NCBI GenBank assembly: GCA_018660225.1
Contig: JABJKT010000203.1
Location: forward strand, 1-36,147
Direction: 5' to 3'
From: Kordiimonadaceae bacterium
GTDB lineage: Bacteria > Pseudomonadota > Alphaproteobacteria > Sphingomonadales > Emcibacteraceae
DNA: 36,147 nt
The notes under the pieces were generated by a model. That model was not told where the DNA came from, made no database searches, and saw only the letters and a list, made by a program, of their open reading frames with translations. Position 1 is the stretch's first letter, and every line of letters begins with the position of its first letter. This document shows positions 33,380 to 36,147 of the stretch, one piece after another. A program made the position numbers and the translations under genes.

Positions 33380-34528
33380 TTATCTAGCGTATTTCTTAAG
33401 GATTTCACGGACTTTATCAACAGGAAGCTCATCAATTGTCCTTGTTTCTCCTGTTCTGACATTTTTGCTCGTTACGCTTCTTGCCATCAGGAGCGAATTA
33501 TAAACGGCTTCTTCTGTTGCTTCTGCCACTGCCTGAAATAACGGTGAAATACTATTATTGGGAACTTCTTCAAATTCTGCATTATTATTACGGCGCACCG
33601 CTGTGCGCCTCACGCTATCAGCCGTTGAAAAGCTGATTACATAATCCCCACTGCCATTGGTCATCGCGGAGCCTGTCCGCGCCAAGCCGGTAAGCGCGCG
33701 TTTGGCTAGTCGTTCAAGATTTCTGTCTGAAAGCGGTGCATCTGTTGCGACAACCATCATAATAGAACCGTCGGCAATATCGCTGTCCACATATCCTTTC
33801 AGATAATATTGGTTAAGTTCTTCGCCGACCGGGACCCCGTCCATCATCAATGTACCGCCGTAGTTACTTTGAACCAACACACCAACCGTATAACCGCCAA
33901 GGGTACCCGGAAGAACGCGCGACGATGTTCCGATACCGCCTTTCCATCCAAAAGCTGATGTTCCTTTACCGGCGCCAATATCGCCTTCTGCTACTGGGCC
34001 TCTTTTTGCGTCCTCTATAGACCTCATTATAATTTCAGGTGTCAGATGACGACCACGAATATCATTTAAGCCCGCATCATTGGTTTCACCAACCACGGTA
34101 TTTACAGAGCGGACCGCTTCATTTCCGTCCTGACGCAACGTCCAGTCAAGAATAGCATCAGCCGCGCGGGGCACACTAAGCGTATTGGTAAGCACGATCG
34201 GCGTTTCAATTTCGCCGAGTTCGTGAATTTGCGAATAACCCATCATTTTACCAAAGCCGTTTCCGATAACGACGGCTGCGGGAACTTTATCCTGATAAAT
34301 ATTTCCGCCGTGGGGCAGGATCGCCGTTGCGCCTGTGCGGATGCTATCACCTTTCATCAAAGTAACGTGCCCAACCAGAACACCTTCCACATCGGTAATC
34401 GCGTTATGAGTTCCGGTATTAAGTATGCCCGGCTTTATACCAAGATCCCGAGCACGAACCTGTTCGGCAGAAACAGAGCTGTTAAAAACAAAAATAAATA
34501 AACAGGTTGAGAGGATAGTTTTATACAT
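33380..34528 (-). CDS. P1/S58 family peptidase (DmpA / beta-peptidyl aminopeptidase-like), exported
   Basis: 382 residues with a signal peptide (about 1-21, VSA/EQV). DmpA-family blocks are present: GILNTGTHNAITDVEGVLVGH, SVNTVVGETNDAGLND, the GAGKGTSAFGWKGGIGTSSR loop and GVLVQSNYG. Self-processing is expected between Gly254 and Ser255 in DGSIMMVVATDAPL, as this precedes the beta chain whose N-terminal Ser is the nucleophile in DmpA/BapA enzymes. Such enzymes remove D- or beta-amino acids from short peptides. The gene is read away from the Lrp regulator gene, sharing its 185-base promoter region; whether they are co-regulated is not known. A GGACT-like site before the ATG is weak. Confidence 0.87.
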   Translation of the reverse strand: MYKTILSTCLFIFVFNSSVSAEQVRARDLGIKPGILNTGTHNAITDVEGVLVGHVTLMKGDSIRTGATAILPHGGNIYQDKVPAAVVIGNGFGKMMGYSQIHELGEIETPIVLTNTLSVPRAADAILDWTLRQDGNEAVRSVNTVVGETNDAGLNDIRGRHLTPEIIMRSIEDAKRGPVAEGDIGAGKGTSAFGWKGGIGTSSRVLPGTLGGYTVGVLVQSNYGGTLMMDGVPVGEELNQYYLKGYVDSDIADGSIMMVVATDAPLSDRNLERLAKRALTGLARTGSAMTNGSGDYVISFSTADSVRRTAVRRNNNAEFEEVPNNSISPLFQAVAEATEEAVYNSLLMARSVTSKNVRTGETRTIDELPVDKVREILKKYAR

Positions 34529-34683
34529 AGGGTAAGGACTCCATTAATTTTCAGCAGACTATAATATATACTGTCACTTTATAAAAATGATATTATTTAA
34601 CACCATTAAACACTATTAAATGCTTTTTTATTCCTTAAAATGTCCAATTTACTATGTACAAATGTATTTTTACTGCGTATATT

Positions 34684-34689
34684 GTTCAT
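34684..34689 (+). promoter_or_regulatory. Single GTTCAT box upstream of the Lrp gene
   Basis: ATTGTTCATT matches the boxes found downstream of the Lrp gene and lies 24 bases before its ATG. This suggests autoregulation, but one six-base match in AT-rich DNA is weak by itself. The same gap holds a 10-bp tandem pair (CACYATTAAA, 34601-34620). Confidence 0.35.
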
Positions 34690-34713: not shown

Positions 34714-35151
34714 ATGGATTTACAGAAAAGTGAGAAAAAACTGCTTGATTTGCTTAAAATCAATAGCAGAATGAGCGCTGCGGAGCTTGGCCGTAAGCTA
34801 AACTTGGCCCGTTCGACCATTCATACGATGCTCAGTCGCCTTGAAGAGAAAGTCATTGATTGCTATACGGTGAAGCTTAAATCCGATACCATAGATCATG
34901 ATGCGCGCTGTTATGTTACAATAACCCGTGACCCTAAGAAATCCGCGCAAATTGAGGGTTCCCTTTATAATATGGCAGAGGTAGATTGCCTAGCCACTGT
35001 CGCCGGATCCATTGACTTTATGATATTGGTTAGAACCGATAATAACCAGCAAATGGATGAGGTACTCACCAACATCGCCATGCTCGACGGGGTGATAAAT
35101 ACTGAAAGCCATATAATATTATCATCAAAGTTCAACAGAATGCCACAATAA
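34714..35151 (+). CDS. Lrp/AsnC-family transcriptional regulator
   Basis: 145 residues, typical Lrp size. The N-terminal winged helix is KSEKKLLDLLKINSRMSAAELGRKLNLARSTIHTMLSRLEEK, and the RAM effector domain follows (CYVTITRDPKKSAQIEGSLYNMAEVDCLATVAGSIDFMILVRTDN, ending with ESHIILSSKF). Lrp-like proteins form dimers and octamers that bind amino acids and wrap DNA. It reads toward an aldehyde dehydrogenase gene of a type often used in amino-acid breakdown. Three evenly spaced boxes lie between the two genes, making it the likely regulator of that gene. A weak AGGTAAG ribosome site precedes the ATG. Confidence 0.9.
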   Translation: MDLQKSEKKLLDLLKINSRMSAAELGRKLNLARSTIHTMLSRLEEKVIDCYTVKLKSDTIDHDARCYVTITRDPKKSAQIEGSLYNMAEVDCLATVAGSIDFMILVRTDNNQQMDEVLTNIAMLDGVINTESHIILSSKFNRMPQ

Positions 35152-35182
35152 TCACACATAATGAATGATATATTATATATTT

Positions 35183-35230
35183 GTTCATTATGATTTGACA
35201 TATGTTCATATTTTATAATATATCGTTCAT
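35183..35230 (+). promoter_or_regulatory. Three GTTCAT boxes at exact 21-bp spacing (candidate Lrp operator)
   Basis: GTTCAT occurs at 35183-35188, 35204-35209 and 35225-35230, each 21 bases from the next, within AT-rich flanks of the form ATNN-GTTCAT-NAT. Two helix turns between sites would place regulator dimers on the same DNA face, as expected for an Lrp-type oligomer wrapping DNA. The array is between the Lrp gene and the aldehyde dehydrogenase gene and overlaps a plausible promoter. Binding by this Lrp is inferred. Confidence 0.55.
35195..35224 (+). promoter_or_regulatory. Possible sigma-70 promoter of the aldehyde dehydrogenase gene
   Basis: A perfect TTGACA (35195-35200) is followed after 18 bases by TATATC (35219-35224). 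A perfect TATAAT also sits at 35214-35219, but only 13 bases from the -35, which is too close. The elements lie among the GTTCAT boxes, with one box inside the spacer. The leader to the start codon would be about 140 bases. Confidence 0.4.
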
Positions 35231-35368
35231 ATATTCAATTTTTAATAAGAAAATAAATTTAACTCAATAATAATTTAGCATTAGACGATAATTTTATCGA
35301 AACAATAAACATTCGTCACATTTTAAAGAATTTTATACAGACTCAACAATTAAGTAAGGAATATCGAA

Positions 35369-36147
35369 ATGATGAACACTCAAGAAATATACGCAGCACT
35401 CGGACTTAGCGATGCTGATGTTAAAGGCGGCGACCTTAAAGTTTATAGCCCAATTGATGGCGCAGAAATTGCAGCCGTTAAAATGGACACCGTTGCTGGA
35501 ACTGAAGCAAAGATCGCTAAATCAGTAGAAGCCTTTAAAGCATGGCGCAATGTCACAGCCCCTCGCCGCGGTGAACTGGTTCGCATCCTTGGAAACATTC
35601 TTCGTGATAAGAAAGAAGCCCTTGGCTCCCTTGTATCGCTTGAAGCTGGTAAAATTTATCAAGAAGGTCTTGGCGAAGTTCAGGAAATGATTGATATCTG
35701 TGATTACGCCGTTGGCCAAAGCCGTATGCTTCATGGCCTAACCATCGTTTCAGAACGCCCTCTTCATAAAATGCGTGAAATTTGGCAGCCGCTTGGCCCT
35801 GTTGGCATTATCAGTGCCTTTAACTTCCCAGTAGCCGTTTGGTCATGGAATGCTGCCCTTGCTCTTGTGTGTGGTAATTCAACGATTTGGAAATCATCTG
35901 AAAAATCACCGGTTACTGCCCTTGCCTGTCAAAAACTTTTCGATATGGCTTGTGCTGAATTTGGTGATGATGCGCCGGAAAACCTTTCAATTATTCTTAC
36001 AGGTGAACGTGACATTGGTGAAATTCTTGTATCTGATGAGCGCGTGCCGCTTATTTCCGCAACAGGAAGCAGTGCAATGGGTAAAATCGTTGGACAAAAT
36101 GTAGCCGCTCGTTTCGGTAAATCAATTCTTGAACTTGGTGGAAACAA
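35369..36147 (+). CDS. Aldehyde dehydrogenase family protein, ALDH7-like, 5' part only
   Basis: Open frame of 259 codons running off the window end. Translation gives MMNTQEIYAALGL..., then RRGELVRILGNILRDKKEALGSLVSLEAGK, GPVGIISAFNFPVAVWSWNAALALVCGNSTIWKSSEKSP and RVPLISATGSSAMGK, ending in LELGGN where the conserved catalytic-pocket Glu of aldehyde dehydrogenases lies. The catalytic Cys is beyond the window. FNFPVAVWSWN and FGKSILELGGN fit ALDH7 / piperideine-6-carboxylate (aminoadipate semialdehyde) dehydrogenases, which oxidise a lysine-breakdown intermediate with NAD(P)+. The substrate is inferred. Start at 35369 or at the next ATG (35372), with AAGGA upstream. The adjacent Lrp regulator supports an amino-acid catabolism role. 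Confidence 0.85.
   Translation, partial: MMNTQEIYAALGLSDADVKGGDLKVYSPIDGAEIAAVKMDTVAGTEAKIAKSVEAFKAWRNVTAPRRGELVRILGNILRDKKEALGSLVSLEAGKIYQEGLGEVQEMIDICDYAVGQSRMLHGLTIVSERPLHKMREIWQPLGPVGIISAFNFPVAVWSWNAALALVCGNSTIWKSSEKSPVTALACQKLFDMACAEFGDDAPENLSIILTGERDIGEILVSDERVPLISATGSSAMGKIVGQNVAARFGKSILELGGN

Follow-up and report, generated by a model that had tools for sequence, protein, structure and literature searches.

A conserved GTTCAT array with a 21-bp phase before an aldehyde dehydrogenase gene of Emcibacteraceae, a candidate operator of the adjacent Lrp-family regulator

The analyzed stretch of DNA (the window, 36,147 bp) originates from a Kordiimonadaceae bacterium and carries close to its right end a gene for a regulator of the Lrp/AsnC family (lrp, 34714-35151, plus strand, 145 aa), followed on the same strand by an aldehyde dehydrogenase gene (ALDH, 35369-36147) truncated by the end of the contig. 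Domain analysis of the lrp product yielded the N-terminal helix-turn-helix (PF13412/PF13404, HTH_24/HTH_AsnC) and the C-terminal AsnC/RAM ligand domain (PF01037, AsnC_trans_reg), above the gathering scores. Homologs in the Protein Data Bank were PH1519, LrpA, AsnC, and Lrp. Since the best NCBIfam matches scored far under their cut-off (LysM, 56.7 vs 180), the protein belongs to no named equivalog. The best family of the truncated ALDH was NF050084 (359.9 over 234 residues), corresponding to the L-piperidine-6-carboxylate (P6C) dehydrogenase type, and the full-length orthologue in genome G013 passed the cut-off of this family (794.1 vs 730). By way of this full-length orthologue, ALDH is predicted to be a probable enzyme of lysine catabolism. 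The window end at 36147 interrupts the protein at residue 259, whereas its residues 206-506 are encoded on another contig (G000:C199:51798-52700); two contigs carrying these parts indicate an assembly break inside ALDH, with overlap. An S58 peptidase gene (33380-34528, minus strand) is divergent from lrp and lies beside it in all 11 genus members. Its promoter falls within the same intergenic region as the lrp promoter, and the two might be co-regulated.

An earlier note on this DNA had pointed to three identical GTTCAT boxes at exact 21-bp steps before the ALDH gene, placed around a TTGACA-type promoter directly after the Lrp gene. Both claims were confirmed in the window sequence. The hexamer occurs on the plus strand at 35183, 35204, and 35225, and a perfect TTGACA is located at 35195-35200 between box 1 and box 2. 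Box 1 begins 31 bp past the lrp stop codon, and the end of the array lies approximately 140 bp upstream of the ALDH ORF. The pattern GTTCAT-N15-GTTCAT had two overlapping matches in the whole window, both in the array, with 0.02 expected from dinucleotide shuffles, and the triple appeared in none of 200,000 mononucleotide shuffles of the 217-bp lrp-ALDH intergenic region. In the 3.04-Mb MAG (G000), the looser pattern GTTCA-N16-GTTCA was found 17 times vs 12 times in the reversed control; going by the 17 matched sequences themselves, the ALDH array was the single strongly AT-rich case.

Each box overlaps a 13-mer site on the plus strand. Site 1 (ATATATTTGTTCA, 35175-35187, hexamer box 35183-35188) is positioned just 5' of the -35 and is kept in 11 of 11 genus members. 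Site 2 (TGACATATGTTCA, 35196-35208, hexamer box 35204-35209) occupies the spacer between the -35 and the -10, and its GTTCA is invariant in all 11. The -35 hexamer (TTGACA, 35195-35200, plus strand), with TTGA[CT] at the same position in the 11 members, possibly serves also as the left half of site 2. Site 3 (AATATATCGTTCA, 35217-35229, hexamer box 35225-35230) overlaps the probable -10 and the start. This probable -10, TATATC (35219-35224, plus strand), lies 18 bp after TTGACA and was assigned solely by its position and the alignment; the promoter consensus scan omitted it since its sixth position is C. A 17-nt inverted repeat was also noted (35161-35177/35214-35230, arms 36 nt apart, 94% complementary), whose right arm holds box 3 and whose left arm holds an inverted ATTCAT box. 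This repeat was not seen by eye in the sequences of the relatives.

Conservation was assessed in MAGs of relatives (Emcibacteraceae and Kordiimonadaceae), which are marine bacteria. The gene order S58 peptidase, lrp, ALDH is common to 11 genus members, and the array, including TTGA[CT] between boxes 1 and 2, is kept in every one of these genomes having lrp beside ALDH. Conservation of the spacing had been named beforehand as a test that could refute the proposed operator, and the proposal passed it. Boxes 1 and 2 are separated by 21 bp in all 11 members and boxes 2 and 3 by 21 bp in 10 of them (20 bp in G002); G003 and G008 carry a degenerate box 3. The mean pairwise identity among the 11 members reached 0.89 in the box columns and 0.94 in TTGAC, compared with 0.58 in the other between-box columns, 0.42 in the flanks, and 0.37 expected by chance. 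Because the identity of the flanks is near chance, box sequence and phase have been kept while the surrounding neutral DNA was nearly randomized.

A sequence-only profile (R1) was built from the 11 genus arrays and run on 33 genomes of the family. Outside the training set, its best genomic match was the promoter of ALDH, or of an operon of a TPP enzyme and ALDH, in seven genomes (G031, G015, G025, G009, G023, G022, and G027), and weaker matches were located at the corresponding promoter in G032, G014, and G030. In some genomes outside the genus, a TPP enzyme gene (PRK08199 type) precedes ALDH. In several of the seven, another gene separates lrp and ALDH (an O-antigen-ligase-like gene in G015), yet the array is still located at the ALDH operon. 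In most of the extracted loci, a second GT(T/C) keeps register with GTTCA and TTGAC; outside the genus, usually boxes 1 and 2 alone survive. As the -35 contributes to the profile signal, these matches support promoter and boxes jointly. Inspection of the next-best R1 matches in G006, G015, G008, G003, and G004 for further regulon targets yielded none that was convincing; these matches fall in coding sequence or before genes without a clear link to lysine. In G015, which belongs to another genus, a match to TTGACATTTGTTCAT (G015:C1:3792815-3792839) precedes a LuxR-type gene that has ectoine-synthesis-like genes nearby; it is possibly a second target, or a mere promoter match.

Orthologues of lrp were present in 22 Emcibacteraceae genomes, and none was detected outside the family at E<=1e-27 among 384 other Alphaproteobacteria sampled. 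Across the orthologues, the HTH residues 19-46 are 86% identical pairwise vs 69% in the ligand domain. Among the 33 family genomes, 22 have both the orthologue and ALDH, none has lrp only, three have ALDH only, and eight have neither (Fisher 1.2e-5, uncorrected for phylogeny and with incomplete MAGs). The three genomes with ALDH only comprise G018, which has no array, G030, which has just TTGAC and a box-2-like GTTCT, and G005, which is cut by a contig end.

The related box that the earlier note had seen before the Lrp gene was found again: GTTCAT at 34684-34689 stands right behind TATATT (34678-34683), the -10-like hexamer of a TGTACA-17-TATATT promoter identified by the promoter scan. In eight of the ten genus members with readable sequence, GTTCAT likewise follows a TATATT-like hexamer, approximately 24 bp before the lrp start. 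A PWM trained exclusively on the ALDH arrays revealed additional sites at distances of 20-21 and 41-42 bp upstream, in the genus as well as in other genera. The strong site (CGTATATTGTTCA, 34676-34688, plus strand) overlaps the -10, the middle site (TGTACAAATGTAT, 34655-34667, minus strand) overlaps the -35-like TGTACA (34655-34660), and the weak site 1 (CTTAAAATGTCCA, 34634-34646, plus strand), 42 bp from the strong one, is better kept in G004, G007, G010, and G011. The summed score at lag 21 amounted to 44 in the genus and 75 in other genera vs mononucleotide-shuffle maxima of 19 and 24, respectively. Additional peaks at lags 28 and 35 are probably echoes: on reverse reading, GTTCA also yields a weak site at a 7-bp offset. 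The lrp promoter carries sites at the same phase as the ALDH array, which fits autoregulation. Multiple imperfect sites at whole helical turns, with the regulator's own promoter included (the 21-bp array and the lags of 20-21 and 41-42 bp at lrp), are the arrangement of clustered Lrp-type operators. The proposal of a phased, autoregulated Lrp operator was supported on these sequence grounds, since the array accompanies ALDH or its operon in further genera as well and the lrp promoter repeats its phase; observation and proposal withstood each computational test applied.

The same note had regarded the hexamer itself as the unit. The GTTCAT boxes are real, but the comparison suggests a larger unit. 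Of the two lrp-promoter sites, one is inverted in other genera (TGAACATTCGTCA), and the centres are still 21 bp apart; in G014, G016, and G015 this centre spacing persists despite the inverted site, as expected of dimer sites. An inverted site with unchanged centre spacing suggests that the unit is not the bare hexamer but a 13-bp pseudo-palindromic dimer site, TGAC-N4-GTTCA, with GTTCA as its putative strong half. Site 2, the lrp sites, and a distal element described below match this pattern more or less, whereas sites 1 and 3 have weak left halves. The palindrome is therefore imperfect, and the boxes are also readable as plain direct repeats. The conservation of the left half of site 2 has a second explanation, since it coincides with the -35.

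The distal element is an inverted 13-mer on the minus strand (TGACGAATGTTTA, 35306-35318), whose centre lies approximately 110 bp from that of site 2. In ten genus members with long enough leaders, it scored 7-8 of 8 in seven; its distance from the -35 is 111-113 bp in six of these and 102 bp in the seventh. By comparison, 500 mononucleotide shuffles gave a mean of 0.52 genomes and at most four. Similar weaker sequences were seen by eye at about equal distance in G004, G006, and G007. As its distance to the start codon varies, the element appears tied to the promoter. The lrp-ALDH intergenic region of G008 (contig C25) contains a short in-frame ORF joining the first ~24 and the last ~44 codons of a TPP (acetolactate-synthase-like) enzyme gene. 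Other genera carry such a gene between lrp and ALDH, and the ORF is a deletion relic recording its loss in the genus. In G008, the element (CAAACATTGGTCA) falls within the coding sequence of this relic, so its origin may be coding sequence, and it is conceivable, although we consider it the less probable case, that the element is a mere leftover of the lost gene and not a fourth site. Against this, most members hold the element at ~111 bp though its surroundings diverged, and other genera have an almost identical inverted copy upstream of lrp. Only tentatively, the ALDH control region might be a four-site nucleoprotein switch formed by three two-turn-phased dimer sites and the inverted site ~110 bp downstream. 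In such a switch, a single Lrp octamer would wrap the leader DNA and the weaker three-site copy would set the regulator level, which is equally speculative.

As a whole explanation, we consider it likely that the array is the operator of the adjacent, family-restricted Lrp, acting through promoter-blocking dimer sites and negative autoregulation. The Lrp encoded upstream would bind three 13-bp dimer sites, each with a box as its strong half; because the centres of these sites are two helical turns (21 bp) apart, one DNA face could accommodate three adjacent dimers. With TATATC as the -10, transcription would start near 35231 and the site centres would lie at roughly -50, -29, and -8. A weaker copy of this layout over the lrp promoter would confer negative autoregulation, and a metabolite of the lysine pathway would loosen or rearrange the complex, whereupon P6C dehydrogenase would be made. 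From the comparison of sequences, binding of the array by the Lrp encoded just upstream is very probable. Repression rather than activation is favored with moderate confidence, since sites at the -35, the spacer, and the -10 would block RNA polymerase at the ALDH promoter. With slightly less confidence, we infer a lysine-type effector.

The same operator and the same Lrp could also act as an effector-dependent activator or dual regulator, with Lrp staying bound and remodeling the promoter in the presence of the amino acid, as PutR does at putA. In Caulobacter, PutR activates its neighboring catabolic gene in a proline-dependent manner (PMC6168545), Lrp proteins often work both ways (PMC2995911), and the conserved distal element ~110 bp off suggests a larger complex. 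Nevertheless, this appears rather unlikely, as all three sites lie inside the core promoter, where bound protein normally shuts out polymerase, and as the perfect TTGACA of the -35 should need no activator. It is improbable that the boxes are the operator of some different regulator controlling both lrp and ALDH: GTTCAT direct repeats are no typical textbook Lrp consensus, but the array is present at both promoters and tracks the presence of the lrp orthologue, and its spacing and pseudo-palindrome are typical of Lrp proteins. The LexA/SOS box of Alphaproteobacteria is a direct repeat GTTC-N7-GTTC. This repeat had no match in the window, which speaks against a different regulator, and since the GTTC repeats of the array have 17 bp between them, an SOS box was rejected. 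A chance origin, or one from a 21-bp unit recently duplicated in place, to which the strong AT-richness of the region and the agreement of two boxes at 10 of 11 bases from GTTCAT onward might point, has a negligible probability in view of the shuffles and of spacers that differ within each array, and was refuted by the persistence of the array in 11 genomes whose flanks are near saturation.

Among known regulators, Rv3291c (LrpA), which we take to be the protein of the Protein Data Bank entries 2qz8, 2vbw, and 2w25 and to be encoded next to the lysine aminotransferase gene of Mycobacterium tuberculosis, is a detectable, distant homolog of the lrp product (E about 1e-9). It resembles the present case, in protein and gene context, as an Lrp-type regulator tied to the route from lysine via P6C to aminoadipate; it differs in its clade and in its distant sequence. 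Sites two or three helical turns apart on one face, clustered in autoregulated promoters, are documented for the Lrp family (PMC2995911). It is likewise established that Lrp proteins bind as cooperative dimers at two-turn intervals on one face, wrap DNA, and regulate their own genes (PMC2995911, PMC10201364). The own control region of Ss-LrpB from Sulfolobus solfataricus similarly comprises three sites on one DNA face in an autoregulated promoter, and three interacting dimers condense ~100 bp (PMC2995911). In contrast to the ALDH array, it has an archaeal promoter, another box sequence, another target, and no known amino-acid effector. BarR of Sulfolobales is likewise an Lrp-type regulator beside an amino-acid catabolic target, and the region between the two genes holds several semipalindromic sites at regular intervals (PMC10201364), but it is archaeal, belongs to a divergent gene pair, and has 15-bp sites, spacers of 15-17 or 27-29 bp, and beta-alanine. 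PutR/putA of Caulobacter and other Alphaproteobacteria also combines a local Lrp-type regulator with an adjacent amino-acid catabolic dehydrogenase, although its genes are divergent, the amino acid is proline, and PutR, as are several alphaproteobacterial catabolic Lrp regulators, is an activator; PMC6168545 describes no binding motif or phased array. An earlier description of the array, or of Lrp at a bacterial P6C dehydrogenase gene, was not found in the literature searched.

The array is thus well supported as a new candidate Lrp operator, well conserved, predictable, and with a clear target, while the kind of control element is familiar. Lrp-family sites are usually too degenerate for prediction; here, an almost invariant hexamer in a fixed phase provides a clean, predictable candidate operator in which spacing, dimer cooperativity, and autoregulation become directly testable on short DNA. 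For the poorly studied Emcibacteraceae, the array links a family-restricted Lrp to a probable step of lysine catabolism.
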